From positions 1 to 64,000 of the forward strand of contig NZ_JALIEB010000016.1 of assembly GCF_025755255.1 (NCBI RefSeq): a DNA stretch of 64,000 nucleotides, in the 5' to 3' direction. The notes under the pieces are model-generated. The model saw only the letters and a program-made list of their open reading frames with translations, was not told the origin of the DNA and did no database searches. A program made the translations under genes and the position numbers. Below, piece after piece: positions 11-21,481 of the stretch (position 1 is its first letter; each line of letters begins with the position of its first letter). This stretch comes from Roseobacter sinensis (GTDB lineage Bacteria > Pseudomonadota > Alphaproteobacteria > Rhodobacterales > Rhodobacteraceae).

Positions 11-1048
11 GTGCCATACGCGCCTGAGACGTTTGACGGTATCATCCGAAAACTTATGCAAACTGGCTTGGAGCCATCGTTTCTTTCTTCGAAGCTCATT
101 AGCTCTGCAGATGCTTGCAGGTTCGACCAGGTGCAAAAAGGATCTCTCAACGAGACCCCAACGGTTGTAGATAAATCAATCGAAGCTGTAAGCCGAGTAT
201 TTGGATGGGGCAAAGATCAACTTCTGTCCGCACAACCGTTGTCGGTGCCAGCATTGGCTGGTGCACAGGCTCGATTCAAGATGCCCGCACGCCGAAACGC
301 GGACCAAACCACTTTGTATGCAGCTTATGCATTTTATCTTGCACGTTTGGTCCTTCAAGCAACTCCCAAAGGCCCGTTGAACCCAGTTCCTGATGAGCCG
401 GATGCATTTTTGGAACTCTACCACGCAAGCTACCAAGAGCTCGACTTTCGAAATCTTTTGAACTTCTGTTGGGACTTGGGAATCCCGATCATGCCACTTA
501 GCGACGGTGGTCAGTTTCATGGTGCATGCTGGCGGATGGAAGGTCGAAACGTAGTTGTTATGAAGCAAAGGACGCCACATACAGGCCGATGGCTCTTCGA
601 TTTGCTTCATGAGCTCTACCATGTGTCGCAAAGGCCTGAGGAAACGGATTTCTTAGTTTTGGAGGCTGCGGAAACTTCTGTTGAACGTCGCGAATCCGAC
701 GAAGAGATACGAGCAAGCCAATTTGCCGGCGAGGTTGCGTTGCGGGGGCAGGCGGAAAACCTGACCCAAGTAGTAATCAATCAAAGCAATGGGGACATAA
801 GACGGGTAAAGTCGTTGGTTTCTCAAGTCGCTGAAGCACATGATATCGATGTTGGGCTCTTTGCAAACTACCTGGCATTCCGCCTTCAGATGCAAGGCAT
901 AAACTGGTGGGGAGCCGCAGCAAATCTTCAACGCAGTAGTGAAGACCCATGGGAAATAGCACGAGACGTATTTTGTGAAAGATTTTCGTTCGAAGGGATA
1001 GATGCCACTGACCAGTCAATTCTAGATCGCGCGTTGGAAAGGACGTAG
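11..1048 (+). CDS. ImmA/IrrE-type zinc metallopeptidase, possibly 5'-truncated
   Basis: The protein carries HELYH (H200-E201-L-Y-H204), the HExxH zinc site of ImmA/IrrE-type peptidases. These commonly cleave repressors or act as antitoxin or regulatory partners. The N-terminal 120 residues are largely helical and may be a degenerate DNA-binding region. The given start is GTG at 11, but the frame is open to the window edge (no stop at positions 2-10), so an N-terminal part such as an XRE domain could lie upstream. It is the first visible gene of a six-gene operon; the next ATG follows its stop by one base. In this setting it could sense or process a partner of the modification-type enzymes downstream, which is inference. 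The peptidase motif is clear; the role is unknown. Confidence 0.75.
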   Translation: MPYAPETFDGIIRKLMQTGLEPSFLSSKLISSADACRFDQVQKGSLNETPTVVDKSIEAVSRVFGWGKDQLLSAQPLSVPALAGAQARFKMPARRNADQTTLYAAYAFYLARLVLQATPKGPLNPVPDEPDAFLELYHASYQELDFRNLLNFCWDLGIPIMPLSDGGQFHGACWRMEGRNVVVMKQRTPHTGRWLFDLLHELYHVSQRPEETDFLVLEAAETSVERRESDEEIRASQFAGEVALRGQAENLTQVVINQSNGDIRRVKSLVSQVAEAHDIDVGLFANYLAFRLQMQGINWWGAAANLQRSSEDPWEIARDVFCERFSFEGIDATDQSILDRALERT

Positions 1049-1049
1049 G

Positions 1050-1634
1050 ATGAAACCATTAGGAAAGTTAGAACCCCTCAAAATCAGCTGTATAGATAGT
1101 GATTGCGAGAATGATTTGCATTGCTTCAAGGCCACACGACAGATGTCGGACGAGGAAAGAGGAAGCTGCCGTTCTTGCGGGGTCGAGTTAGTAGATTGGC
1201 CACGCCTGCATCAGCGATCAATCGACGACGCAGACTTCACGTTTGCTGCGCTCCGGAACGAGAAAATCCGCCATCACTTTTTCCATACACAGATCGATCA
1301 ACATGCCCTGAACTACGCCAAACGTAAAGGTTGGGGCCTTCTTCGCGAAGCTATCGAGAACAGAGTCTGGAAAAGTATTGCAAAGTCGGGCAACCCACGA
1401 GACGGGCAGCAAACGCCATTTCATGGAAACCCGATCTACTACGCGCAGCACGCAACCGCCACATGCTGCCGTACCTGTCTAAATTATTGGCATAATATCT
1501 CCAAAGAGCACGATCTGACAGATGAAGAGGTGGAGTACTGCTCTGATCTTATCGAACTCTGTCTGCGGGATCGGCTAAACGACATTACCGATGAGCCCCA
1601 GAAGGTTCCGCCGATCCGGAAAAAGGCTCAATAG
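1050..1634 (+). CDS. DUF4186-like protein with N-terminal zinc-ribbon
   Basis: 194 residues. The N-terminus has paired cysteines (C14, C19, then CRSC near residue 41) typical of a zinc ribbon. The C-terminal half carries QHATATCCRTCLNYWH near residues 132-147, preceded by DGQQTPFHGNPIYYAQ. This pattern matches my recollection of DUF4186, a small family of unknown function with conserved His and Cys that suggest metal binding. DUF4186 proteins are usually nearer 110-120 residues, so the N-terminal ribbon is an extension. The ATG lies one base after the preceding stop, with GGACG/AGGA purine-rich sequence upstream, so translation is coupled. The function is unknown; nucleic-acid binding would fit its neighbours but is inference. 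Confidence 0.65.
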   Translation: MKPLGKLEPLKISCIDSDCENDLHCFKATRQMSDEERGSCRSCGVELVDWPRLHQRSIDDADFTFAALRNEKIRHHFFHTQIDQHALNYAKRKGWGLLREAIENRVWKSIAKSGNPRDGQQTPFHGNPIYYAQHATATCCRTCLNYWHNISKEHDLTDEEVEYCSDLIELCLRDRLNDITDEPQKVPPIRKKAQ

Positions 1635-1646
1635 GAGAAGTATTCG

Positions 1647-2669
1647 ATGGAACGCGGCGTTATCGATACGGCGGCCACGTCGGACCACTTGCGCAGTAGG
1701 TCCATCGAGATTGAGTCTAGAAGCATTCTTGTATCTAAGCTCAGCGGTTCAGATCAAGAACCCGACCTCAGTGCGCCAACAAACTGTGATGGTTTTGGTC
1801 GTGTCCGCCATTTCAGGACGGACACCTCCGACGGTTGGCCTTCCAATCCGCTACCCATAGTGCCTGCAGCTCATGCATTCGGCTTACCGCTAGCGACCAA
1901 AACATTGGAAGCGCAAGTCTTTCAGAATGCAGCATGTCCGTGGCGGTGCTGGTATTGTTTTGTGCCGTATCCTCTGCTGAGCGCAAATCCAAAACACTCG
2001 GAATGGCTAAGCGTTCCAAGGCTGCTGGACCTCTATGAGACGGAAGGACCTGACGCTCCAAGGCTCATTGATTTATCAGGTGGCTCGCCAGACCTGATCC
2101 CAGAGTGGTCTATTTGGATGATGGAGGAGTTGGAAGCGCGAGGGTTGGAGCAAACAACGTTTCTCTGGTCAGATGATAATCTGAGCACCAACTATCTTTT
2201 CGAGAAGCTGACGACTGCACAACTAGAGGAGATGGCGCGCTATAAAAACTACGGAAGGGTCTGTTGCTTCAAGGGTATCGATGAAGCGTCATTCAAGTTC
2301 AACACGAATGCCCATGGCGAAGGGTATGACTTTCAGTTCAGCGTTATGGACCGACTACTCGACCTCGGATTGGACACTTATGGCTACATCACCGTCACAG
2401 ACGCCAGTTCTGAGAACTTAGCGTCGCGAATGAGCACTTTTTTCGACCGGCTTCAAGACCTGCACCCCAACTTGCCTCTCAGAGTGATACCCCTGCAAAT
2501 CGGGGTTTATGGCCCAGTTGGACCGAGGATGAATGATGATTTTGAACGAAGCCTGGCCATCCAAGAGGAGTCTATTTCGTTTTGGAACGAAGAAATTGCG
2601 AAGCGTTTTACTCAAGAAGACCGTTCACGGCCAATCCATGAAGTTGAGCTGCGGGGTAGGGCAGGATGA
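1647..2669 (+). CDS. Radical SAM enzyme of unrecognised subfamily
   Basis: 340 residues. The canonical CxxxCxxC motif is CPWRCWYC (C97, C101, C104), which binds the 4Fe-4S cluster that cleaves S-adenosylmethionine. A DLSGGSPDL segment downstream resembles the SAM-contacting GGE-type loop. The first 85 residues are an extension before the radical SAM barrel. No SPASM-type or second cysteine cluster is seen. AGGAG lies nine bases before the ATG, and the 3' end overlaps the next gene in ATGA fashion. The substrate is unknown. With a methyltransferase-like protein, an ASCH protein and a nucleotide kinase next to it, a nucleotide or nucleic-acid substrate is the simplest guess. The fold call is strong; the role is speculative. 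Confidence 0.8.
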   Translation: MERGVIDTAATSDHLRSRSIEIESRSILVSKLSGSDQEPDLSAPTNCDGFGRVRHFRTDTSDGWPSNPLPIVPAAHAFGLPLATKTLEAQVFQNAACPWRCWYCFVPYPLLSANPKHSEWLSVPRLLDLYETEGPDAPRLIDLSGGSPDLIPEWSIWMMEELEARGLEQTTFLWSDDNLSTNYLFEKLTTAQLEEMARYKNYGRVCCFKGIDEASFKFNTNAHGEGYDFQFSVMDRLLDLGLDTYGYITVTDASSENLASRMSTFFDRLQDLHPNLPLRVIPLQIGVYGPVGPRMNDDFERSLAIQEESISFWNEEIAKRFTQEDRSRPIHEVELRGRAG

Positions 2670-4033
2670 AGCATTTCTCAATAGAGAGCCTATCGTTCGA
2701 TGAAAAAGTTGATCTCTCGGTTATGCAATGCATTTCCCGAGGAGCCTCGGAATTCACTGACATATTGGCATCAATGCCCGGTGTCTATCCAACCGCGGCG
2801 CTTGGGTCGATACGGCGGCTCGCTAAACGAGGGCACATCAATGCCTCTAATGCAGCAAAGTTAGTCAAGCAGGCCAAGCACCAGCCACGGCAGAGCACCA
2901 GCTATAACGTTTTACCCCCACCACATCCTTTGAACTATGAATGGCGGTTTGACAAAGACACTTCTCGTAGTCTCTTGATGAGGGCGTTTGGGGTCTGCGC
3001 AAGTTCGTCTGACTGCACCTTGCTGCTAGGTACTCCAACACTGGCATTGGCCGCCATGGACATGAACATCGCGGGACATGCAACATTTCTTGGAGAAAAA
3101 AATGCGATAACAAGCTCAATTTCACAGATGAGCCGGGTTAGAAATCAAGCGCTCGAAACAATCGATAGCCTAAGCCAATCTAGCGTTCGTGAGTTCCGAA
3201 GTGTGGTCTTGGACCCTCCTTGGTATGACGAGTGCATACTCGAGATGTTGCCGCTCGCAGCAAAGGCATGCACCCAAGGTGGTCATGTCTTCCTAGTTGC
3301 CGCTCCGTTAGGCGCCAGACGCTCCTCAATCACACACAGAAAAAGCCTGCTTCAGCTCGCGCATCGTTGTGGATTGTCGCTGGTTTCAGAGGCGCAAAGC
3401 TTTGCTAGATACCAGACGCCATTCTTTGAAGCGAATGCACTAAAGGCGGCCGGTTTGGCCCTGCCGGGAGACTGGAGGTCCGCTGATCTACTCGCCTTCA
3501 AAAAATCGGTTGTTTGGCAGCATGACGTACCCTCACCAGTACCTGTTGAACGTGCATGGGTGGAAGTAGGTATCGGTCGTATGCGTGTGTTTGTTGACCT
3601 TTCTCGATATGATGCTCCTTGCCAGACAATTCAACTTCAAAGCATCATCCCAGGCGACGTACTACCCACGGTGAGCAGAAGGGATGCACGTCGGGCAAAA
3701 GCTAACGTTTGGACCTCAGGAAACCGGGTTTTTCGTTGTAATAGACCCCATGAGCTTGTTGCGGCGCTTCAGGGTGACTTCCTGTCCTGTCTTGGCGATG
3801 ACAGATCTGACCCATGTCGTCATTCTAGCGTCGCAAAATTCCAACATTACGCTAAGTTGAAGTGTTATCTTGAGAGCTTGTCAGCTATTGAGCGAGGTGA
3901 AGAGAGACAGCATTTCGGAGATGGATTTGGACCGCAGCGCACTAATATACGGCGAGCTAGAAGAGCGGTTGCGGAACCACTCTTTCTGGGGGCCACTCCT
4001 GTCCGAGATCCGTCGTGGCGCAAGACCTGCTAG
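2666..4033 (+). CDS. DPPW-motif methyltransferase-like protein with N-terminal winged-helix-like region
   Basis: 455 residues. DPPWY at residues 183-187 is the catalytic motif IV of amino-methyltransferases acting on adenine N6 (MT-A70 and related families). A hydrophobic LLLGTPTLALA stretch near 119-129 could be the first SAM-binding strand, although it lacks the usual glycine-rich loop. Residues 1-70 look like a small helix-turn-helix or winged-helix region. The start overlaps the radical SAM stop by 4 bases. The C-terminal 45 residues are encoded within the first part of the next gene in another frame and look compositionally odd (many Arg), so the true 3' end may be altered by a frameshift. 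Substrate unproven: DNA, RNA or free nucleotide are all possible. Confidence 0.65.
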   Translation: MKHFSIESLSFDEKVDLSVMQCISRGASEFTDILASMPGVYPTAALGSIRRLAKRGHINASNAAKLVKQAKHQPRQSTSYNVLPPPHPLNYEWRFDKDTSRSLLMRAFGVCASSSDCTLLLGTPTLALAAMDMNIAGHATFLGEKNAITSSISQMSRVRNQALETIDSLSQSSVREFRSVVLDPPWYDECILEMLPLAAKACTQGGHVFLVAAPLGARRSSITHRKSLLQLAHRCGLSLVSEAQSFARYQTPFFEANALKAAGLALPGDWRSADLLAFKKSVVWQHDVPSPVPVERAWVEVGIGRMRVFVDLSRYDAPCQTIQLQSIIPGDVLPTVSRRDARRAKANVWTSGNRVFRCNRPHELVAALQGDFLSCLGDDRSDPCRHSSVAKFQHYAKLKCYLESLSAIERGEERQHFGDGFGPQRTNIRRARRAVAEPLFLGATPVRDPSWRKTC

Positions 4034-4436
4034 CCTTCATGTTGCGATTTTTTCTGAGCCGTTTTTGCAACATGTGATAGAAGGAAGAAAGACGGTCGAC
4101 ACCCGGTTGTCGACAGTTCGATGTGCTCCGTTTGGGCAGGTCATGAGAGGTGATCTCGTGCTTGTAAAGGAAACTGGCGGTCCAATCACCGCACTCACAT
4201 ATGTCGCTGATAGCGAATTTTTCTCTGTTGCCCATCATTCATTAGAAGATATGAGGGCAGACCATGGTTCAAAGATCTTAGCCGATGACGACTTTTGGGT
4301 CTCTAAGAAAGATGCTCGGTACGCGTCCCTGATCCATATGGAGCAGACGGTTGATTTTGTACCGATTTCCTTTGCGAAGAGCGATCGAAGAGGGTGGGTT
4401 TCGCTTAACGACGACCAAATGGAGTTCGCGTTTTGA
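3921..4436 (+). CDS. ASCH-domain protein
   Basis: About 171 residues if translated from the ATG at 3921; an in-frame TTG at 3870 would give 188. GRKTVDTRLS matches the GxKxxExR signature of ASCH domains, a PUA-like fold that binds RNA or modified bases, and is followed by the usual beta-strand pattern (MRGDLVLVKE). It overlaps the preceding gene by 113-164 bases in a different frame, far more than the 4-base overlaps elsewhere in the operon. Its stop overlaps the TTG start of the next gene. ASCH domains can read a modified nucleobase, so this protein may recognise the product of its enzymatic neighbours; that is inference. Confidence 0.65.
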   Translation: MDLDRSALIYGELEERLRNHSFWGPLLSEIRRGARPASLHVAIFSEPFLQHVIEGRKTVDTRLSTVRCAPFGQVMRGDLVLVKETGGPITALTYVADSEFFSVAHHSLEDMRADHGSKILADDDFWVSKKDARYASLIHMEQTVDFVPISFAKSDRRGWVSLNDDQMEFAF

Positions 4437-4978
4437 GTCAGGTAGTAGTGATAGCGTTTTCAGGAAAAATCGGGAGTGGGAAGAGCGCTGTCTCAAAGCT
4501 GGTCGCAAGCCACCTCAAATTTGAGAGAATTAGCTTCGGGGACTACGTTCGAGCATCCGTTTCTGCGAAAGGTGGTGATCCTCTGTCACGCAAAGACCTT
4601 CAGGACGAAGGACAAAGGCAGGTGGAAGCTGATCCCAAATCATTTCTGAGCAGCACCCTCATATTTCACAATTGGGATTCGAACTCAAATGTCGTTGTCG
4701 ACGGCCTAAGGCACACTTCCGTTCTTTCCGCTATGAGACACCACTTCAAAGGTCAACTTTTTCATATCCATTTGGAAGTAGTCGATACTCTGGCGACCGA
4801 AAGGGCCCTGGAGAGAGGTGATGAACTAAGCAGCTTGGAAGGAGCTCTGGAACACATTGTTGAGACTGATGTCGGCAATGACCTAAAGCTCGCTGCAGAC
4901 TTAGTGCTGGACGCGGAGGAGCCAATCGAGGCCTTGGTTGCTGCATGTATCTCGGCGACGAAGACACCGCAACGATAG
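4433..4978 (+). CDS. Small P-loop nucleotide kinase (dNMP kinase/CoaE-like)
   Basis: 181 residues. The N-terminus carries a Walker A motif, GKIGSGKS, at residues 11-18, followed by features of small P-loop kinases such as dephospho-CoA kinase and deoxynucleoside monophosphate kinases (a VVDGLRH segment after the central strand and an Arg-rich lid region near ATERALERGDE). The start is TTG, overlapping the preceding stop as TTGA, so it is translationally coupled. In phages and mobile elements such kinases often phosphorylate modified nucleotides. In this operon it could activate the product of the radical SAM or methyltransferase enzyme. Fold assignment is good; substrate unknown. Confidence 0.7.
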   Translation: MSQVVVIAFSGKIGSGKSAVSKLVASHLKFERISFGDYVRASVSAKGGDPLSRKDLQDEGQRQVEADPKSFLSSTLIFHNWDSNSNVVVDGLRHTSVLSAMRHHFKGQLFHIHLEVVDTLATERALERGDELSSLEGALEHIVETDVGNDLKLAADLVLDAEEPIEALVAACISATKTPQR

Positions 4979-5108: not shown

Positions 5109-5924
5109 TTAGCTCCTGTTTAGGGTTTGGTCCTCTCTTGACCGTTGGTGATACTCCCACGGAGTGAGCCCGTCGAGGCTCGAGTGCGGGCGGTGGTGAT
5201 TGTAGTCGGCGCGCCATGCCGCAATCATGCGGCAGGCATGGCGCAGTGACGGGAACAGGTGTTCGTTCAGGCATTCCTCCCGCATCCGCCCGTTGAAGCT
5301 CTCGACCAAGCCGTTCTGCATTGGCTTACCCGGCGCGATGTAGTGCCAGCCGACTTGGCGGTCTTCCTGCCATTTCAGCATCGCATTTGACGTCAGCTCC
5401 GTGCCGTTGTCCGAGACCACTATGCACGGGTAACCGCGTAACTCGGCGATGCGATCCAACTCACGAGCGACACGCGCACCTCCAATTGATGTATCCACGA
5501 CAGCGGCCAGGCATTCACGGCTGAAGTCGTCGATCACATTCAATACCCGGAACCGGCGCCCGTCCTCCAATGCGTCCGACATGAAGTCGAGCGACCATCT
5601 CTGGTTTGGGCCTTGCGGAATCGCCATGGGTGCCCGGGTGCCGACTGCGCGCTTGCGTCCGCCCCGTTTACGAACGGTTAACCCTTCTTCGCGGTAGAGC
5701 CGATACAGCTTCTTCCAGTTCACTTCCCAGCCTCCGCGTTTCAGCAATATGTGCAGCCGCCTATAGCCGAACCGACGCCGTTCAGATGCCAACTCTTTCA
5801 TCCTGGTGCGCAACGCGGTGTCTGCCGGACGCTTCGACGTCCGGCGATACACACGCGGATCGATCCCTGCCAGCGCGCAGGCGCGTCTCTGATTGTAGCC
5901 CTTGGTCTTCATGGCCCAGTTCAC
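5109..5924 (-). CDS. IS3-family transposase OrfB (DDE integrase domain)
   Basis: 271 residues from a GTG at 5924. An HTH_21-like N-terminal region ([20 protein letters not shown]) is followed by an rve/DDE integrase core: [13 protein letters not shown] holds the first Asp, VVSDNGTEL the second, and the [15 protein letters not shown] segment the catalytic Glu. It ends with [18 protein letters not shown], standard for the family. It is normally made as an OrfAB fusion through the frameshift at 5954-5960. Intact. Confidence 0.92.
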
Positions 5925-5947
5925 AGCATTCCTCCTTGAACCAGGCC

Positions 5948-6214
5948 TCAGAAGTTTTTTCCGAGCATTTCCTTGAGCGTCGCCACATCCATCATCTGCT
6001 CGGCCAGCATCTTCTTCAGTTTGGCGTTCTCAGATTCCAGCGTTTTCAGCCGCCGCGCATCAGACACTTCCATGCCGCCATACTTGGATCGCCACTTGTA
6101 AAAGGTCGCGTCGCTGATCCCGTGCTTGCGGCAAAGCTCCTTCGCGCCAAGCCCAGCCTGATGCTCCTTCAAGATGCAAATGATCTGTTCTTCGCTGAAA
6201 CGGCTTCTCTTCAT
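5948..6214 (-). CDS. IS3-family transposase OrfA (helix-turn-helix)
   Basis: 88 residues starting [11 protein letters not shown], with the DNA-binding HTH_Tnp_1 region ([19 protein letters not shown]) followed by a leucine-rich coiled coil ([17 protein letters not shown]) used for multimerisation. It ends EMLGKNF just after the slippery sequence. OrfA binds the terminal repeats; alone it usually acts as a regulator, and fused to OrfB it is the transposase. Confidence 0.92.
5954..5960 (-). other. Programmed -1 frameshift site (A AAA AAC)
   Basis: Read on the minus strand, the last codons of orfA are GGA AAA AAC TTC TGA. This contains the classic A_AAA_AAC heptamer in the correct phase. A -1 slip leads directly into the orfB frame (CTT CTG AGG...), giving an OrfAB fusion. 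It is the standard mechanism in the IS3 family; use here is inferred from phase and position. Confidence 0.8.
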
Positions 6215-14053: not shown

Positions 14054-16425
14054 AGCTGCCTCCAGAATTCAGGAGAGCTGCGCCAATTGTTGCCAAGCTG
14101 CGCCTCAGCGGATCGACCTCCCCCCAAAATGGTAAGAAGCGGCCCAAGCGCGGAGAGGTCAGCATCGACAAAGACGCTGTCGCCCGCGGATCGCACCAGC
14201 GCGATGCGCTGGCCTGCCGTGGGTCTTGTCAACAGCTCGGCTTCCTTTTCGTTTACGCGCAGGAAGTCGTAGTCAGCAGGGGTGGCCCGCTCGTTGGGGA
14301 ACAGGATTTGCGTCGATACCGTCTCGATGATGGTCTTGCCAACCCGAGCCTCTCGCAATTGACTGGGGTATTGGGTCATCATCACGACGACGCAGTTCAT
14401 CTTGCGGAGGGTGACGAGCCAGTTCTCGAGCCTCGCCGCGAAATAGGGATCGTCGAGAAGCTTCCAGGCTTCGTCCAGAACAATCACTGTCGGTCGGCGA
14501 TCTTCCACGATCCGCTCGATCCGGCGCAGGATGTAGGACAGGACGGCCATGCGTTCGGTCGACATGTCGAGGATCTCGGTCATGTCGAATCCGACAATGT
14601 CGCCGTCCATGTGCATGGCATCGTTTTCCTGCGGCATACCGAAGACCCAGCCATAACGACCGCCCGGTGCCCATTCCCCAACACGCGCCTGCAACTCGCC
14701 ATCGTCGTCGAGCGATTGGAACAAGGTCTGGAACGAGACAAACCGTTGCAGCGAGGGGCCGGCATCCGCATTTTGCGACACCGCGCTCTGAATGTGCCGA
14801 GACTGCTCTCCGGACAGATCGCCCGCCCGCGCCAGAAGCGTCGCCAGCCATTCCGACAGCCAGGCCCGTCCGCGTTCATCCGTCTCTGTCTGCAGCGGGT
14901 TGAGGCCCGTCGGGATACCGGCAAGGATCGTATTGTAGTGACCGCCCAGGGCGCGCACCGCCATCTCGAGCCCGCGATCCTTGTCGAAGAAAAACAGCCG
15001 CGCGGCGACCCGCTGTGCTTGGGCGGCGAGAAAGGCGGTCGTGAGGGTTTTGCCGCTGCCCGTGCGACCCAGAACAAGCGTATGGCCAACGGTCGGTTCG
15101 CGCTCGGGCGACCCGGGTTCGTGGAAATTGAGGCCGTAGGCACAGGTGCCCGTCGTCGGGAAGACTGTCACGCGCGCTCCCCACGGCGTCTCTCGATCCG
15201 AACGTCCTTCGACGCATCCATGCAGCGCTGAGAAATCCGCAAAGTTGATCGTGGAGATCGGTGTCTTTCTAGCACGGTAGCCATAGTTACCGGGAGCCTG
15301 CCCAAAATAGGTCGCCTTGAGAGCCATATTCTCTCGTACGATCACGGCCATGATTTCCTGCCCCAGACGTTTGATCTCGGCTGCGGCCTGTTCGAGCGTC
15401 GGTTGATCGGGCGCGTAGACGGCGATGGACAGGTGATGATCGCCGAACGCAATGCGCCCGGCTTCCTGATCATCGGCCGCTTCCATGAGCTGATCCCGCA
15501 AGGAGACTGCCGCGTCATCGGCCGCACGCATCTGCCGAACGATCCGTTGAATCCGTTCTGCCATGATGTTTGTGGGGATCGGCGTGAAGGAATTGGTCAG
15601 CACGATATCAAGCGGAAGGTCGAGACCGTCAAACAGAGAGACATCCGTAAGCGCGGGATAGCTCTTGATGCTGAAGAGAGCCCCATACCGTGTCTCGCCC
15701 GTCGTGCCACATGTGATCCGAGCCGTATCTCCGTCAAAAGTTGCTCGGCAGGACCCAAGCGCGTAGCCTAGGGGCAGGGGGGCGTTTGGTCGCGCAATCG
15801 GGGCGTATTGGCCGGTGAGCAGCGTCGCAAGAAACCCGAGCCATTCGCCGGTGGTGTTGTCGAGACGAACGGGTTTTGCAGGTGCAAGCGCAGTCTCGAA
15901 AAACCCGGCCACTTCATCGAGTTCCCGCGCGCGACCCGCGCGGTCTTTCATCCAGGTTCGCTTGGCAAAAGCGTTGAACAGTGGGACCCGTGCCCCGATC
16001 TCCGGACGTCGCAATATGCTGAGATAGAGTTGCGGCTTTTTGGGCGCGAGTTGCGCGATGTAATCTTGCCAGCGTCGGTCGATCTCCGCTGCAAAGCCGT
16101 CGCCTTGTACAGGACGCATCGCGAGCTTCTGAGGGACAAATATGCGATGGACATAGAAGCCGTAGAGATTGCCCGTTTGCGCGATGACCGCCGCGACCGC
16201 GCGTTTCATAGCATCGAGATCGACGTCCGGTGTCGTCGGTGCCGCAAGTCCCTCGAGGCGGAGCGTGGCCATCAGATCGCCCTCCCGCAAGACCATGACG
16301 TCGGGTTCGGCGAAGGCGATGTAGGGCAAATGCTCGGCGAGATGGCTTTCGCGTGCCAGGGCGGTGCCGCTGGTTTCAATGACCGCCGGGCTGGGCTTTG
16401 CGTATTTCATCCCGTCAAGCGCCAT
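14044..16425 (-). CDS. virB4: VirB4 secretion ATPase
   Basis: 793 residues from the ATG at 16425, chosen because the upstream 60 codons run through virB3. An N-terminal CagE/TrbE/VirB domain is followed by a P-loop LVLGRTGSGKTLTT near residue 455 and Walker B TVIVLDEAWKLL near 650, then the VVMMTQYPSQL segment typical of VirB4. It powers pilin extraction and transfer at the inner membrane. It overlaps virB3 by 11 bases. Normal length and intact motifs. Confidence 0.95.
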   Translation of the reverse strand: MALDGMKYAKPSPAVIETSGTALARESHLAEHLPYIAFAEPDVMVLREGDLMATLRLEGLAAPTTPDVDLDAMKRAVAAVIAQTGNLYGFYVHRIFVPQKLAMRPVQGDGFAAEIDRRWQDYIAQLAPKKPQLYLSILRRPEIGARVPLFNAFAKRTWMKDRAGRARELDEVAGFFETALAPAKPVRLDNTTGEWLGFLATLLTGQYAPIARPNAPLPLGYALGSCRATFDGDTARITCGTTGETRYGALFSIKSYPALTDVSLFDGLDLPLDIVLTNSFTPIPTNIMAERIQRIVRQMRAADDAAVSLRDQLMEAADDQEAGRIAFGDHHLSIAVYAPDQPTLEQAAAEIKRLGQEIMAVIVRENMALKATYFGQAPGNYGYRARKTPISTINFADFSALHGCVEGRSDRETPWGARVTVFPTTGTCAYGLNFHEPGSPEREPTVGHTLVLGRTGSGKTLTTAFLAAQAQRVAARLFFFDKDRGLEMAVRALGGHYNTILAGIPTGLNPLQTETDERGRAWLSEWLATLLARAGDLSGEQSRHIQSAVSQNADAGPSLQRFVSFQTLFQSLDDDGELQARVGEWAPGGRYGWVFGMPQENDAMHMDGDIVGFDMTEILDMSTERMAVLSYILRRIERIVEDRRPTVIVLDEAWKLLDDPYFAARLENWLVTLRKMNCVVVMMTQYPSQLREARVGKTIIETVSTQILFPNERATPADYDFLRVNEKEAELLTRPTAGQRIALVRSAGDSVFVDADLSALGPLLTILGGGRSAEAQLGNNWRSSPEFWRQLCD

Positions 16426-16693
16426 AGCTGTCTCCGCCGTGAAGCGCTCGATTGCGCGTGCCGCGCACCGTGCCGTAGGAGACGCGCAGGACTTCGAAGA
16501 AATGCGGCTCCTTGTCCGCAACAAACCAGAGGACGGGATAGGCGAGCGCGCCGACCAGAAAGAAGACCGGTGACTTCGTCCAGATAAAGGGCAGGACCAC
16601 GCCAAGCGTGAGCACGACGAGATATCCGACCGGCAAGCCGAGATATTTCGGTGGGCGGGCCAACCCGAGAAAGAGAGGGGATCGCATGGCCAT
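16415..16693 (-). CDS. virB3: VirB3 inner-membrane protein
   Basis: 92 residues with the VirB3 pattern: a short N-terminus (LGLARPPKYLGLP), two adjacent membrane helices (YLVVLTLGVVLPFIW, VFFLVGALAYPVLWFV) and a charged C-terminus (DKEPHFFEVLRV). VirB3 works with VirB4 in pilus assembly. It starts on the last base of virB2 and overlaps virB4. Confidence 0.93.
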   Translation of the reverse strand: MAMRSPLFLGLARPPKYLGLPVGYLVVLTLGVVLPFIWTKSPVFFLVGALAYPVLWFVADKEPHFFEVLRVSYGTVRGTRNRALHGGDSYGA

Positions 16694-16974
16694 CAGGTAA
16701 ACCCGTCAACGATGGTGCCCGCGGAGAAGATCAGGACGATCCCGATCACCACGGAGGCGAACCATCCCCAGTTGAGCCGCCCCATCATGCACATGAAGCC
16801 GGTGCCGATGACGGCGAGCGTCGCGACCGCGATGCCGATTGGGCCGGTGAGCGCCGCTTCGATTGTCTCGAGCATTGTCTGGATGGGCGAGAGGTCCTGG
16901 GCGAGGGCAGGGGAGGCCCATAAGGCCAGAAGGCCAATGATTGGAGGTAGGTATCCTGGAGGCAATCTTCGCAT
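16693..16974 (-). CDS. virB2: VirB2 pilin
   Basis: 93 residues. A long signal sequence ends near ASPALA (residue about 25); the mature protein has two hydrophobic helices (GPIGIAVATLAVIGTGFMCMM, WFASVVIGIVLIFSAGTIVDGF) separated by a short polar turn (GRLNWG), as in VirB2/TrbC pilins. It would be the major subunit of the conjugative pilus. It follows the virB1-type gene by 21 bases. Confidence 0.93.
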   Translation of the reverse strand: MRRLPPGYLPPIIGLLALWASPALAQDLSPIQTMLETIEAALTGPIGIAVATLAVIGTGFMCMMGRLNWGWFASVVIGIVLIFSAGTIVDGFT

Positions 16975-16995
16975 CGGTTTCCCTCGTTTCAGGTC

Positions 16996-17661
16996 TTACT
17001 TCAGGTCGAGCACGACGACGGGACGCGTGGCGTCGCGCATCGTCGGTCCGGTCAGGTCTTGCGTGGCTGCGCCGGAAAGGCGCGCTCGGATGCGATGCAC
17101 CCGGGCGATGTAGTCGCGTGTTTCCGTGAAGGGCGGCACGCCCCCGTATTCTACGACGCGATGCGGACCGGCGTTGTAGGCCGCCAGCGCAAGGTCGATG
17201 TCGTTGAAGGATGCCAGCTGCGCCAAAAGGTACCGTGCTGACCCGTCGAGGTTCTGCGCGATATCGGTTCTGTCTACGCCAAGGTCGTGTGCGGTGGCGG
17301 CCATGAGTTGGCCGAGACCATAAGCGCCTTTGTCACTGATGGCGTCAGGGCGATAAGCGCTTTCAGCTTCGATCAAGGCGCGGAACAGAGCCAGCCAGTC
17401 ATCGGAGCTGATCTCGAGTGCTCGAAGGGCTCGGTTGCGTTCATGTCTTGAAGCTGTCGCATGAATGGCCGCCAGCACATCCGACGGGGCCATGGTTGCA
17501 AAGCTTTGCGAGTGTGTGGGCGGGGGGTTCTTGTCTACCTGGCCGTGAACCGTCCAGCCGTCAGTTGTTCTGACGCTTCCGTCCGCTCCGAAGATCATCG
17601 CCTCCGCCAGGAGCGTCGAAGGGGATAGAGTAGTCGCTGTCAAAACACAGAGTGCGACCAT
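16996..17661 (-). CDS. virB1: VirB1-type lytic transglycosylase
   Basis: 221 residues from the ATG at 17661, which gives a signal peptide (MVALCVLTATTLSPSTLLA). The SLT domain has ALIEAESAY with the catalytic Glu, GAYGLGQLMAATAHDLG, and LALAAYNAGPHRVVEYGG. It opens the peptidoglycan for channel assembly. The 5' end overlaps the preceding unknown gene by about 100 bases; a downstream ATG at 17598 would remove the overlap but also the signal peptide. It is one of two SLT proteins in this operon. Confidence 0.85.
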   Translation of the reverse strand: MVALCVLTATTLSPSTLLAEAMIFGADGSVRTTDGWTVHGQVDKNPPPTHSQSFATMAPSDVLAAIHATASRHERNRALRALEISSDDWLALFRALIEAESAYRPDAISDKGAYGLGQLMAATAHDLGVDRTDIAQNLDGSARYLLAQLASFNDIDLALAAYNAGPHRVVEYGGVPPFTETRDYIARVHRIRARLSGAATQDLTGPTMRDATRPVVVLDLK

Positions 17662-17917
17662 CGCCGAACTCGTGGTGATGTTTGAAGAGGCCGGGCCAGA
17701 TGTTGAAGAGGCGGGGTTCTGGTCCGTAGGGTCCGAACCGTGTCGAGACCAGGATCGCCTCGGGCTCTCCTTCGCGCAGGTAGACACACTGATAGCGGGG
17801 CTTCCCATCGTCCGTGAACTCGACAAGCTCGTACCGACAGCGGAAGTCGACTCCCGACCCGATGAGGTCCTTCACCCCATCAATAGTAATCAAGATTTGG
17901 TCTCTTGCGATCGGCAC
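17561..17917 (-). CDS. Unknown protein at the head of the VirB operon
   Basis: 118 residues, no signal peptide, with a beta-rich pattern (FRCRYELVEFTDDGKPRYQCVYL). It looks like a genuine first gene of the operon, starting 63 bases from a palindromic site at 17980-17996. The last third overlaps the virB1-type gene in another frame; the Gly/Arg-rich end (GGGDDLRSGRKRQNN) may be a by-product of that overlap. No family recognised. Confidence 0.55.
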   Translation of the reverse strand: MPIARDQILITIDGVKDLIGSGVDFRCRYELVEFTDDGKPRYQCVYLREGEPEAILVSTRFGPYGPEPRLFNIWPGLFKHHHEFGDGRTLCFDSDYSIPFDAPGGGDDLRSGRKRQNN

Positions 17918-17979
17918 CGGACTCCCCCACTGGGAGTCCTTCTACTATCGGCAGCATTCCGCAGAAAGCCATCACTCTG

Positions 17980-17996
17980 CAATATATAATATTGCG
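17980..17996. promoter_or_regulatory. Candidate operator/promoter: perfect inverted repeat GCAATAT-ATA-ATATTGC
   Basis: A 17-bp sequence with 7-bp perfect arms lies in the AT-rich divergent spacer between the VirB operon (minus) and the gene at 18046 (plus). It contains TATAAT, a possible plus-strand -10 element, and is extended by an overlapping palindrome, TATTGCGCAATA (17991-18002). A related string, GCAATATACTATA, lies at 20569-20581 upstream of the small XRE regulator. Binding by that regulator is a guess. Confidence 0.45.
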
Positions 17997-18045
17997 CAAT
18001 ACGTATTTTGAGCGAGAATTGGCCTAATCACTTCAGGAGGCCGAT

Positions 18046-18624
18046 ATGAAACACACCCGCCTTGCGTCACTGGCTTTGGCAGCCGGGCTGACGGTCGACG
18101 CCCAGCAAGCCCATGCCTACGATATGGATTGCGCCATCATGCTCTGTATGGCCGGTGGGTTTCCATCGAGTGCTGTGTGTTCCGCCGCCTATGCCGAAAT
18201 GATCCGGCGGATTACGCCCTGGCCGAGCCGGCCACCCTTTGGGGTCTGCACCTATGCTGCCGTTCCGGTCGCTTTGGGTGGACCGGGTGGAGAGGATGCT
18301 CTCGATATTTCGACAGCGGACTACGAATGGCTACGCCGAACGCGCGTGCTTTGGTGGCGCGGTCGATCTTATGAGCCGCGCGATGAGCCACGTCAGTGGG
18401 ACTGGTCCATCAGATCCTGCGATCATGAAAACAAGAACTGTCATTACATCGTGCGCGTCTATGGCTCACATTCGCCTTGGCCGGCTTCGTTCGCGTCGGA
18501 AAACGGCCAGGACATCCCGACACCCGGTTCGGGTGGGCTTTGGGCCTTCTACAGCAGGGCCGTCATGATGGAGTATGGCGATTACGACGGCGCCATGGAT
18601 TACACCGATTGGGTCAGATACTGA
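18046..18624 (+). CDS. Secreted Cys/Trp-rich protein of unknown function
   Basis: 192 residues with a signal peptide (MKHTRLASLALAAGLTVDAQQAHA). The mature part starts YDMDCAIMLCMAGGFPSSAVC, a cysteine-rich segment, and is rich in Trp and Tyr later (VLWWRGRSYEP, RQWDWSIRSCDHENKNCHY). AGGAGG precedes the ATG by 6 bases. It is transcribed divergently from the VirB operon. Proteins of this kind are frequent beside plasmid VirB operons in Rhodobacteraceae as I recall, but the function is unknown; surface exposure or transfer-related roles are possible. Confidence 0.7.
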   Translation: MKHTRLASLALAAGLTVDAQQAHAYDMDCAIMLCMAGGFPSSAVCSAAYAEMIRRITPWPSRPPFGVCTYAAVPVALGGPGGEDALDISTADYEWLRRTRVLWWRGRSYEPRDEPRQWDWSIRSCDHENKNCHYIVRVYGSHSPWPASFASENGQDIPTPGSGGLWAFYSRAVMMEYGDYDGAMDYTDWVRY

Positions 18625-18639
18625 GGCTTCGTTCGGTAA

Positions 18640-19218
18640 CTACAGGTATTCAATATCGGCACGGGCTTGCGCCGCCAGTTTCGACAGGCCATGCCGGGTC
18701 AGGTCGAGCAGGAACTTGGACGGCGTCATCGGCGGGTTTTCATACCTTTTTCTCACGCGGCGGAGTGCACGTGCGCCGCCGGATGGATACAGGTCGTAGG
18801 TATTGGCGAGCATGTCATCCGCGCCGAGCGTTTCGACGCCATAGTCGTCGAGAATTTCGCTTGGGAAGTCTCGATGGTTTTCTGTCACAATAACCTGTGC
18901 CGAGCATCGGATCGCTGCCGCGAGAACGTGTCTGTCGTCCGGGTCCGGCAGGTCCAGACCAGCAATCAAGGGCTGGTATCCGGTCACGAAGCATTCTTCG
19001 AAGGTCTCTCTGATCGCGGCTTCCTGCTGGCGAATGCTCTCTTCGAGATGTGGTTTGAGCGCGATCAGGTTGCGTGTCCATTCGTCGAGAATCTCATCGG
19101 TGACCCTGGCCCGAAACAGGCCTTCTTGTGTGAACGTCAAGAGGACGTCCCGAACCCGGAACGGAAACAGGACGTTGGCATCGAGGACAACCACGAAGGG
19201 GTTGGCCACAAAGCTCAT
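18640..19218 (-). CDS. PIN-domain toxin
   Basis: 192 residues. VVVLDANVLFP carries the first acidic residue of a PIN nuclease, a conserved Glu/Asp follows in the ARVTDEILDEW region, and DLPDPDDRHVLAAAIRC carries the C-terminal acidic cluster. PIN proteins of toxin-antitoxin modules cleave RNA. At 192 residues it is longer than VapC (about 130), matching the larger PIN_3-type toxins. The ATG overlaps the stop of the upstream antitoxin-type gene (ATGA). Confidence 0.8.
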   Translation of the reverse strand: MSFVANPFVVVLDANVLFPFRVRDVLLTFTQEGLFRARVTDEILDEWTRNLIALKPHLEESIRQQEAAIRETFEECFVTGYQPLIAGLDLPDPDDRHVLAAAIRCSAQVIVTENHRDFPSEILDDYGVETLGADDMLANTYDLYPSGGARALRRVRKRYENPPMTPSKFLLDLTRHGLSKLAAQARADIEYL

Positions 19219-19679
19219 GCGTTGTCGAACTCCTGACCCAATCGCGCAAGGTCGCGCATCGCCTGCTCCTGGCGCCGCTCTTTCTCTTCCCGGTATTGCA
19301 TGAGCGCCGTCAGAGGCACGCGCCGGTGCTTGCCGACCTCTTCAAATCGGATCTTCCCCTCCTTGAGCAACTTCGTGAGATGAGGGCGGGACACGTTCAG
19401 CATGTCGGCGGCCTCTTGGGTTGTGAGCATGGTGCCGACCGGAACGAGCGTGACCATGTTGCCATTGCTCACATGGCCGAGCAGTTCGATGATCAGTTTT
19501 CCAACCTCTGGCGCGATGGAGACCGGATCTCCGTTCTCTCCCGAGACTTTCAAGCCTCCGTCCAGTTCCATAGCCACGGCGATGGCTGTCGCAGCATGCG
19601 CGGCACTGTCGATTTCTTCTGGGGTCGGCGGGCGCTCCATAAGCCCGCTCTGGGCTGGTCTTTCCGCGGTATCGGCCAT
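19215..19679 (-). CDS. HTH (excisionase-type) antitoxin partner of the PIN toxin
   Basis: 154 residues from the ATG at 19679, preceded by GAGGAG. Residues around 95-140 form an excisionase-type helix-turn-helix (LTTQEAADMLNVSRPHLTKLL, then FEEVGKHRRVPL). The C-terminal Glu/Arg/Gln-rich helix would bind the toxin. It is encoded before and coupled to the PIN gene, as expected for an antitoxin that also represses the operon. The N-terminal 90 residues are not recognised. Confidence 0.78.
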   Translation of the reverse strand: MADTAERPAQSGLMERPPTPEEIDSAAHAATAIAVAMELDGGLKVSGENGDPVSIAPEVGKLIIELLGHVSNGNMVTLVPVGTMLTTQEAADMLNVSRPHLTKLLKEGKIRFEEVGKHRRVPLTALMQYREEKERRQEQAMRDLARLGQEFDNA

Positions 19680-19837
19680 GGTTTTTCTCCTCGATTCACC
19701 CCTTAGATGTACCCAGGGAGTCACGCATGCAATAGAAATAAACGGAATAAGTGAAATAAGTGTAACGATTTCGATAGACAGGTCGCGCCATCGAGTGTAA
19801 ACAAAACAGGAACAGAATCGCCTTACGGAGTAGTATC

Positions 19838-20086
19838 ATGGGCAAGAACACGAAACGCACCTCGCGCAAAGTCGCATCGCAGGCAGCGGCCACGCTAAGC
19901 GACCCGAACGCCTCCGCAACCGCCAAGAGCCTAGCGGCATCGGCGCTGGCGCAGTCCGGGACTGGTAAACAGACGGGGGCGGCGATGGAGGACAAAGCCT
20001 CCAAGGTCCTGCAAAGCGAAAAGTACAGCAGTGACACGAAATCGTTGGCAGGAACGGTTCTCTCGCAATCGAACAAGGCGCGCTAG
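19838..20086 (+). CDS. Small Ala/Ser-rich protein with internal repeat
   Basis: 82 residues. Two similar units are visible: VASQAAATLSDPNAS-ATAKSLAASALAQS and DKASKVLQSEKYSSDTKSLAGTVLSQS, sharing the spacing of KSLA and QS. Related short proteins (K-x-A-S-x-A-A-x-x-L-S-D-P) are common next to mobile genes; no function is known to me. It stands alone on the plus strand between the toxin-antitoxin operon and the small regulator. Confidence 0.65.
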   Translation: MGKNTKRTSRKVASQAAATLSDPNASATAKSLAASALAQSGTGKQTGAAMEDKASKVLQSEKYSSDTKSLAGTVLSQSNKAR

Positions 20087-20087
20087 A

Positions 20088-20285
20088 CTAGGCGGGTCCG
20101 GATCTATCGAGATCGATATCTCTTTCGATGATATTGACTACGCAAATCTCCTCGGGCCTTACGAGCCAGACCCGCGTGCGGTCGCCGGTGTTCCAGAGAT
20201 GCTCTTGCCAGACGACAAGTTCTGACCCGTTCACGATTGCTACGCCTTCGCGCACGGGCACGCCTTTGAGCGGACGATCATCCAC
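20088..20285 (-). CDS. Small unknown protein downstream of the XRE regulator
   Basis: 65 residues (MDDRPLKGVPVREGVAIVNG). It is beta-rich and ends in an acidic/hydrophobic stretch (EICVVNIIERDIDLD). It follows the XRE-type regulator by 33 bases on the same strand, so they may form a two-gene unit. No family recognised; short length limits confidence. Confidence 0.4.
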   Translation of the reverse strand: MDDRPLKGVPVREGVAIVNGSELVVWQEHLWNTGDRTRVWLVRPEEICVVNIIERDIDLDRSGPA

Positions 20286-20318
20286 CCGCCATCCCGGAGC
20301 AGGGTGTCGTCCGGCCTC

Positions 20319-20531
20319 CTAGCTGCGGGGTTTGAGAAGTTCCGAAGGATCGATGTTCAGAGCTTGGGCGATCTTTTCGAGCGTTGTCAGCGAAGCGGAA
20401 TACTTGGCGTTTTCGATCTTGCCGACATAGCCGCGGTTCACACTTGCACGATGCGCCAATTCCTCCTGGCTGATGCCCTTGGCGCGCCGGGCATCTTGAA
20501 GATTCAGACCTACTCGTTCCTTCAAATTCAT
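20319..20531 (-). CDS. XRE-family helix-turn-helix regulator
   Basis: 70 residues, nearly all one HTH_3 domain: LQDARRAKGISQEELAHRAS, RGYVGKIENAKYSASLTTLE, KIAQALNIDPSELL. It is a single-domain DNA-binding protein of the type that represses plasmid or phage operons. An AT-rich element (20569-20581) related to the palindrome before the VirB operon lies about 40 bases upstream of its start, suggesting autoregulation. Confidence 0.85.
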   Translation of the reverse strand: MNLKERVGLNLQDARRAKGISQEELAHRASVNRGYVGKIENAKYSASLTTLEKIAQALNIDPSELLKPRS

Positions 20532-21473
20532 GACCGAAGCTCGGCCATGATGTGGCGTATTTAACCACGCAATATACTATACATTCGACGATGAAGCGGC
20601 TGATACTGTGTGATTTTCTGTTTCTAAAGGTGTCGATCAAGCTCGCCATTTGATTGAATAAGATAGCATGGTGACTTCATGCAGCGAGGCGGAGTGGTCC
20701 TGTTGGGCAGAGTTTTGCCCATCGTCGCGGCTGAGGCAGGGGTGCGTCGCAATGTGAACTCTCGCTGAAGTGCACTTCCTGATATGTCGTTTTACTCCAA
20801 TCGGTTCTGGATCTCCATCAGCTTGGTTTCGAAGATCTCCGCCGGGGTGTGGTAGCCGAGGCATTTGCGCGGCGTAGAATTGAGGCGATGGCAAATCGAC
20901 CTCAAATATCGATTTGTCAGCGCTGTCGGTGTGGTTGATCTGGGGAGGTACTTCCGTAGCCTGTTGTTCGTGTTCTCGACCGTGCCTTTCTGGTAAGGCG
21001 CTTGCGGATCACAAAACCATGCATCCGCGCCGATCCCGGCCTTGAGATGTTTCCAGGCCGAGAACTCGGTGCCGCGGTCGAAGGTGATCGATTGACGCGC
21101 ATCAGCGGGCAGGGGGGCCAGGCCTTGGATCAACGCCTCCATGATCGGTTTGGATTGGCGATCCTCGTTGCGCATGACGACAGCATAGCGGCTGACACGC
21201 TCGACCAGGGACGTGACATTCACCTTCCCATGCTCTTTGCGGAACATCATCAAATCGCATTCCCAGTGGCCGAACTCAGCGCGTTCAGAGATACGCTCGG
21301 GTCTATGGGACAGGCTTTGCGTGTCGAAGATGCGGGTTCTGTTTTGCCTACGGTAACCACGCGGCCTTCGGCGACGGCGATGCTCGGGCAGGTGCCGGTA
21401 GAACTGCTCCTCGCGACCGTCCTTGGAGTAAGCGAAACGATAGATTGTCTCGTGACTGACGCGGATCGGATGT

Positions 21474-21481
21474 CGTTCTAG
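21474..21481. repeat. 8-bp target-site duplication (CGTTCTAG) of the IS256 element
   Basis: CGTTCTAG is present at 21474-21481 and again at 22800-22807, directly flanking the IS256 terminal repeats. An 8-bp duplication is usual for the IS256 family. Confidence 0.9.

Follow-up and report, generated by a model that had tools for sequence, protein, structure and literature searches.

A conserved seven-gene plasmid operon with a toxin–antitoxin-like head as a candidate mobile anti-phage system in Roseobacter sinensis

We analyzed a 64,000-base stretch of Roseobacter sinensis DNA (the window), which makes up the first part of the 83,705-base contig C12 in a genome of 4.9 Mb, and focused on an operon that runs across the ends of this contig. 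The last 77 bases of C12 are identical to its first 77, and because of this overlap the contig was taken as circular, giving a plasmid of ~83.6 kb that carries relaxase, coupling-protein, and secretion genes. The XRE-peptidase protein of a homologue matches C12 at both ends, and the operon read across the circular join consists of seven genes in the order A-B-C-D-E-F-G. Its features are as follows (window positions unless a contig position is given; aa, amino acids):

C12:82762-83705, the opposite end of the circular contig: palindrome, gene A, and the N-terminal part of gene B
Contig 82782-83219: gene A, DUF6932 protein, 145 aa, overlapping gene B by 4 bases
Start at C12:83216: gene B, XRE helix-turn-helix plus M78 (ImmA/IrrE-type) metallopeptidase, 486 aa
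2..1048, plus strand: C-terminal 348 aa of gene B, with HELYH
1050..1634, plus strand: gene C, zinc-ribbon-like N-terminus (by eye) plus DUF4186 (YneG-like; E-value 1e-31)
1647..2669, plus strand: gene D, radical SAM protein with CPWRCWYC (CxxxCxxC) and the invariant C47, C206, and C207
2666..4033, plus strand: gene E, winged-helix-like N-terminus plus a predicted BpsA-like class I transferase fold; motifs PHPLxxxWR-like, G[T/V]Px, and DPPWY
3870..4436, plus strand: gene F, ASCH (PUA-like) protein with GRKTVDTR
4433..4978, plus strand: gene G, P-loop nucleotide-kinase-like protein (AAA_18) with GKIGSGKS

A preliminary description of the window had listed six open reading frames (ORFs), and the motifs HELYH, CPWRCWYC, DPPWY, GRKTVDTR, and GKIGSGKS lie where it placed them. 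The close spacing and overlaps that it described were also borne out (gaps of 1 nt and 12 nt, then -4, one long overlap, and -4 again), as was the AT-richness, with a guanine-plus-cytosine content of 0.507 in the operon, 0.609 in the remainder of the plasmid, and 0.602 in the whole plasmid. The unit it recognized is real and conserved, as described below, but has seven genes rather than six, since gene A was missed; nor does the first of the six genes begin at position 11, which lies inside the full gene B. Directly 3′ of the operon, an IS3-like two-ORF transposase (by eye) occupies window positions 5109-6214 on the opposite strand, and no transposase is annotated at the corresponding place in the Roseovarius copy (L004).

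Searches by tblastn found the seven genes in one order at all ten loci compared, the window plasmid included, in alphaproteobacteria and cyanobacteria. Eight loci with a strong match to D (L004-L010 and L016) were searched with all seven proteins and were complete in every case, and a ninth relative locus, L044, has the same genes in the same order. These loci comprise plasmid records of Roseovarius (L004), Rhizobium (L005), Nostoc (L006), Aulosira (L007), and Tolypothrix (L008), a Henriciella bin (L009), a Hyphomonadaceae bin (L010), and genomes of the window's class (L016 and L044); the operon is plasmid-borne in at least six of the ten. Identity to the window proteins ranges from 32% to 76% across the relatives, and the junctions are mostly 1-4-base overlaps or gaps of <20 bases, with exceptions in L006, L007, L008, and L016 (in L008, one D start was mis-called by the script). 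Two further loci fetched for a weak D match, L003 and L017 (G312), lack all six remaining genes and were excluded from the count, and the weak D or E matches in G312, G985, and G231 were likewise not taken as relatives. It is nearly certain that these loci represent a conserved mobile operon. In the Rhizobium copy, an eighth gene encoding a DUF763 protein (E-value 2e-121; L005:15321-16583) overlaps the stop codon of the kinase gene.

Among 72,556 plasmid records, D was detected in seven (E-value threshold 0.01) and F in exactly those seven and no others, whereas E occurred in the same seven and, as distant relatives, in four more. Five of the seven D-bearing records were inspected at locus level, and the records THAF27 and NIES-3275 hold D together with matches for A, C, E, and F (B and G lay outside that search). 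A was present in 28 plasmid records, 7 of which represent the operon. The preliminary description had asked whether the genes occur independently, and the answer is divided: D, F, and full-length E keep together, whereas the DUF4186 domain of C is widespread by itself and A and B also make up separate loci. Strong D matches were confined to the own genome and 1 of 398 genomes in the phylum sample, the own genome and 1 of 385 in the class sample, and the own genome only in the family sample of 295, one weak extra match in each of the phylum and class samples being left uncounted. The operon is therefore rare among the genomes sampled, all of which were drawn around the own genome, with cyanobacteria not sampled as a group. 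Scanning 84,980 species genomes by pattern yielded L009 and L010. No D was found in E. coli genomes in a DNA-against-DNA search and no C in IMG/VR, and A was found in IMG/VR at two loci (L030 and L031).

Six of the seven D-bearing plasmid records were typed as conjugative, and both in the window plasmid and in L004 the operon is flanked by relaxase/coupling-protein genes on one side and type IV secretion genes on the other. The Tolypothrix operon (record positions 15983-21923) falls inside an 18,401-base insertion by which two strains differ (PMC9679502). The conjugative hosts and the position within the transfer region would also suit a self-marking role, an anti-defence function in which modification of the plasmid's DNA, or of the strand transferred, by D, E, and G would protect it from host restriction upon entry and F would recognize the mark. 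We consider this unlikely, as the annotated neighbors differ in L005-L008, secretion genes could be recognized only by eye around L009 and L010, and E has no sequence match to any DNA methylase family in Pfam, PADLOC, NCBIfam, or PHROGs. The earlier suggestion that the ASCH protein reads a mark gained nothing from our analysis, in which no result shows this.

A palindrome, CACAAC-N6-GTTGTG, lies directly 5′ of gene A. It is exact in nine of the ten loci, the L004 copy having a single mismatch, and its end is separated from the ATG of A by 2-3 bases in all ten. In the cyanobacterial loci L007 and L008 the exact palindrome occurs twice, and a TTGAC -35-like box was noted by eye further 5′ in the seven non-cyanobacterial copies. 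The own 4.9-Mb genome contains a single site, compared with none for a reversed-pattern control, and the palindrome appeared in 0 of 200 shuffled versions of L018. A similar palindrome occurs in four of the six other A loci inspected (L024, L025, L027, and L031, the last with a variant arm), either before A or, as we read it, before an earlier in-frame ATG, and none was found before A in L026 and L030. The conservation of this element before A supports B as a putative regulator of its own operon, which would act through the palindrome.

Gene A belongs to DUF6932 (E-value 2e-26), for which nothing was found in the open-access literature, and its sole match in PADLOC is PDC-M63A (E-value 5e-9). 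For B, an HTH_3 domain was identified in the L004 homologue (E-value 7e-12), and HExxH is kept in all seven B homologues compared. Against the PD-Lambda-2_B model, operon B reached E-values of 2.5e-6 (window), 5e-4 (L004), and 5e-6 (L010). A profile of operon B, in a three-sequence search, recovered the B proteins of L024, L025, and L027 at 151, 138, and 129 bits, and these proteins match PD-Lambda-2_B at E-values of 2e-77 to 4e-74. The gene after A-B in L025 and L027 is PD-Lambda-2_C, the beta protein (E-values 1e-41 and 6e-38), and the order A-B-beta protein is also present by annotation in L050 and L053; the A-B pair thus also occurs without the payload genes C-G, in loci of its own. PD-lambda-2 is described as a three-component, toxin–antitoxin (TA)-like abortive defence system with a HigB-like A, in which the toxicity of B by itself is relieved by A and defence depends on C (PMC9519451). 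The operon resembles it in having a small upstream gene followed by an XRE-peptidase fusion, in that its stand-alone A-B homologues precede the PD-Lambda-2_C beta protein (scored in L025 and L027), and in that those loci and the operon have palindromes of similar style. A and B of the operon are homologous to their counterparts in loci carrying PD-lambda-2 components B and C, and the head of the operon, or switch, is likely related to the head of PD-lambda-2-like loci. This also gives substance to the peptidase-defence link drawn in the preliminary description. Since A is not HigB-like and operon B scores the model weakly, however, the operon was not filed as PD-lambda-2.

The loci at L025:8037-10781, L027:7956-10772, L050, and L053 constitute a DUF6932 variant of PD-lambda-2 (A-B-beta), and those of L027, L050, and L053 adjoin ATPase or TOPRIM, helicase, and reverse transcriptase genes. 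In the cyanobacterial plasmids L026, L051, and L052, DUF6932 is followed by a protein of ~170 aa instead of a full B, which may correspond to the N-terminal part of B alone.

A TA-like head on a plasmid also invites the explanation that A-B is an addiction module, with C-G as part of the module or as passengers, so that the operon stabilizes the plasmid and provides no phage defence. The seven plasmid records with D and the plasmid A loci L024, L026, L051, and L052, in which annotation shows no recognizable payload besides A and B (the latter short or full), are in line with this. Addiction needs two genes, however, and five more in fixed order across two phyla want another reason; in addition, L010 and L016 are complete operons on contigs 273 kb and 375 kb long, which may be chromosomal. 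On these grounds, plasmid maintenance appears unlikely to be the role of the whole operon.

The family assignments made for the payload in the preliminary description largely stood for DUF4186, radical SAM, and the P-loop kinase (AAA_18), the radical SAM match being below the cut-off, and were weaker for ASCH. Gene C has a cysteine-rich N-terminus followed by DUF4186, the domain of E. coli YneG, which is named as a DUF4186 protein in PMC11502571. Unlike YneG, operon C has an additional zinc-ribbon-like N-terminus, and this long form was seen only in the operon (7 of the 48 plasmid records with DUF4186). The F copy of L006 exceeds the Pfam ASCH cut-off (21.4 bits; cut-off, 21.2), whereas those of the window (E-value 0.15), L009, and L010 fall below it among the four copies scored, and the F profile retrieved two ASCH-like PDB entries at E-values of 0.4-0.5. 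In alignments with nine relatives, seven begin at residue 23-29 of F (L004 at 1 and L016 at 54), and for this reason the true start of F is probably the ATG at 3921 rather than the TTG at 3870. F overlaps E in all eight relative loci with script-chosen starts; the annotated F starts later in L005 and L008, which leaves the extent of the E-F overlap uncertain. In PADLOC, C, E, and F had no matching family at E-values up to 1, and a PDB sequence-profile search with A, C, D, E, and F (B and G were not in the set) returned nothing significant.

Gene D matches the Pfam radical SAM family at an E-value of 2e-5 (25.4 bits; cut-off, 29.5), and its CxxxCxxC motif and the three further cysteines are invariant in all eight rows aligned. 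Its nearest PDB profile match is 7-carboxy-7-deazaguanine synthase, which is not significant (E-value 0.07), and its only PADLOC match at E-values up to 1 is the prokaryotic viperin (pVip) model (E-value 0.016). Gene G is an AAA_18 kinase (E-value 9e-10) that resembles the pVip-kinase, dCTPase, and VakA models of PADLOC (E-values 3e-8 to 2e-4). A radical SAM protein and a small nucleotide kinase in one operon recall prokaryotic viperins accompanied by kinases, and D and the kinase could accordingly be imagined to make an antiviral, chain-terminating nucleotide as viperins do, an idea to which the weak pVip match of D and the match of G to the kinase region in a model of fused viperin and kinase (E-value 2.6e-8) lend some color. 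In hhalign, however, D was no closer to a true pVip (L032; probability, 47% over 16 columns) than to other radical SAM proteins (L037, 62%; L038, 80%), in a coarse comparison of one pVip with five other radical SAM proteins as single-sequence targets. Six of the ten fetched loci were used; L033 (a second true pVip) and L039-L041 had no fitting ORF and were dropped. Viperin was therefore rejected as a candidate for D, and a viperin-like chain terminator, disfavored as homology, is very improbable.

Gene E, in which the preliminary description saw a methyltransferase-like DPPW protein, points elsewhere in structural comparison. An AlphaFold2 model built from five sequences (predicted local distance difference test [pLDDT], 70; predicted template-modeling score, 0.65) gave, as the top eight Foldseek PDB matches among the best 50 of 1,716, seven chains of the branched-chain polyamine synthase BpsA and 2qm3, a predicted methyltransferase (E-values 3e-8 to 2e-7; probability, 1.00; TM-score, 0.40-0.56; root mean square deviation [RMSD], 7-9 Å). 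The modeled E would share with BpsA a winged-helix-like N-terminus and a class I transferase domain. The GDDD motif, described as indispensable in Tk-BpsA (PMC12979288), is absent from E; all 12 aligned rows read GTPx, GVPx, or GAPx at the corresponding place, the equivalence being judged by motif order, and a script counted 11 of 12 because of a chance match in the L005 row. Pfam BpsA_C did not match E. With GDDD replaced, E is BpsA-like in its predicted fold but probably not a polyamine synthase. The AdoMet_dc family, a source of decarboxylated S-adenosylmethionine (SAM) in the host, is present in G000 and G725 and not in G259. A DNA adenine methylase was also considered for E and rejected, as no DNA or RNA adenine methylase family was found in Pfam, PADLOC, NCBIfam, or PHROGs at E-values up to 1 and the PDB fold list is led by BpsA. 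The E profile reached EF-Tu in the PDB at E-values of 0.05 and above, which was taken as chance.

Distant relatives of E occur in a second setting, directly 5′ of a phosphoesterase protein, in L020-L023 and in the IMG/VR contigs L028 and L029. The loci of this second mobile cluster, composed of an E relative, a metallophosphoesterase, and an adenylosuccinate synthetase, are as follows:

L020:7908-13485
L022:5592-10369
L023:5392-10357

The phosphoesterase has a PUA-like part, scored with Pfam in L020 and alike by eye in the other copies. Close to the E relative in these three loci is a 533-aa adenylosuccinate-synthetase protein, which in L020 has an N-terminal AAA_18 kinase domain (Pfam) and to which the L022 and L023 proteins align, P-loop included; the L020 cluster is also near genes for DUF7002 and YfbR-like HD proteins (Pfam). 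The L020 synthetase reads GSEGKG where the PurA of the own genome (that of the window) reads GDEGKG, and its serine recalls S23 of phage PurZ, which PMC8342488 places among the PurZ-specific residues; the equivalence of the two is our own reading. The recurrence of an E-type transferase, a PUA-like domain, and an AAA_18 kinase in two different clusters favors a nucleotide or nucleic-acid substrate. At L028:6680-9048 and L029:742-3110, the pair of E relative and phosphoesterase occurs without the synthetase, accompanied by a P4-like primase-helicase on a satellite contig (L028) and at a prophage end (L029), the element types being judged by eye; this pair is possibly a two-gene defence system.

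ASCH domains belong to the PUA-like group and have links to RNA, and radical SAM proteins and class I transferases are often RNA modifiers, so that the payload could instead alter or restore tRNA or rRNA in stress under an ImmA/ImmR-like switch. A stand-alone nucleotide-kinase-like protein would nevertheless fit a nucleotide better than a polymer, and none of the four libraries (Pfam, PADLOC, NCBIfam, and PHROGs) identified a domain specific to RNA; we regard RNA modification or repair as improbable.

Defence genes were found by PADLOC within 7 kb of several operon copies, with a type IIG protein (4e-33) and Septu PtuA (1e-105) near L005, a dGTPase (2e-75) near L006, and PDC-S71 near L010 (2e-25, covering part of the protein only). 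Collectively, we favor, at a probability of roughly 0.48 and hence tentatively, a TA-headed mobile anti-phage candidate with a payload that would alter nucleotides or nucleic acid, the product and its use being left open. Taken separately, an action of the payload on nucleotides or nucleic acid is reasonably probable, and an anti-phage role is slightly favored. In such a system, the XRE half of B, perhaps with A, would bind the promoter-overlapping palindrome and keep the operon low, and infection would disturb the A-B pair and raise expression, the peptidase half of B acting as a toxin or as the cleaver of a partner. D and the BpsA-like transferase E could then convert SAM or a derivative into a modified base or nucleotide, which G might phosphorylate and F might bind or hydrolyze, with C as a metal-binding partner. 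The product may poison phage replication or mark self nucleic acid.

Several observations weigh against this interpretation. The count of strong defence neighbors (three of the five loci scored, L005, L006, and L010, with L007 having a weak one and L009 none) covers nine hand-picked proteins without a background rate. D was not found in phage records or IMG/VR contigs, and C-G include no nuclease or other obvious effector. The departures from PD-lambda-2 are threefold: operon A is DUF6932, whereas the published A is HigB-like; five other genes stand in the place of the beta protein; and the similarity of operon B to the PD-Lambda-2_B model of PADLOC is distant. Component C itself is not inside the seven contiguous genes and none is annotated nearby in L004-L008, the flanks checked for it. 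The model of gene C is poor (pLDDT, 62; best fold match, E-value 0.94), and the confidence of the E model is moderate. BpsA was reached from E by fold only, at the high RMSD given above, and not by sequence profiles, and comparison of E with viral models listed phage DNA methylases first, followed by other class I methyltransferases, with poor superposition.

The open-access literature (searched for DUF4186, radical SAM, ASCH, defence, plasmid, kinase, and polyamine synthase) yielded no system of this composition, and the available portions of PMC10853773 and PMC12839542 contain no description of one; together with the PADLOC result for C, E, and F, this agrees with the earlier statement that the operon has no described counterpart. 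Elsewhere on C12, L018:8186-12575 (contig 72186-76575) apparently encodes two regulators of the MerR type and two transporters resembling cation-efflux proteins, as judged by eye from the ORFs.

What appears new in the operon is the payload C-G, and the switch is of a known kind. A bolder version, which we hold to be doubtful, is that a swappable TA switch (DUF6932, XRE-peptidase, and ACAAC-N6-GTTGT) drives a radical SAM/BpsA-like/kinase pathway as a new class of immunity, with an unknown, possibly aminoalkylated, nucleotide or nucleic-acid modification, an ASCH reader or eraser, and the second, PurZ-like cluster as a relative. If this were true, modified-nucleotide immunity would extend, through the second cluster with its PurZ-like enzyme, to a whole family of systems. 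The notion of one switch with interchangeable payloads is directly testable by way of the palindrome and the stand-alone A-B-beta loci. If the favored interpretation holds, the five payload genes would represent an undescribed nucleotide or nucleic-acid chemistry of mobile elements, under a switch related to a tested defence head, and candidate functions would be suggested for DUF4186 (including E. coli YneG), DUF6932, and the BpsA-like family without the polyamine motif.

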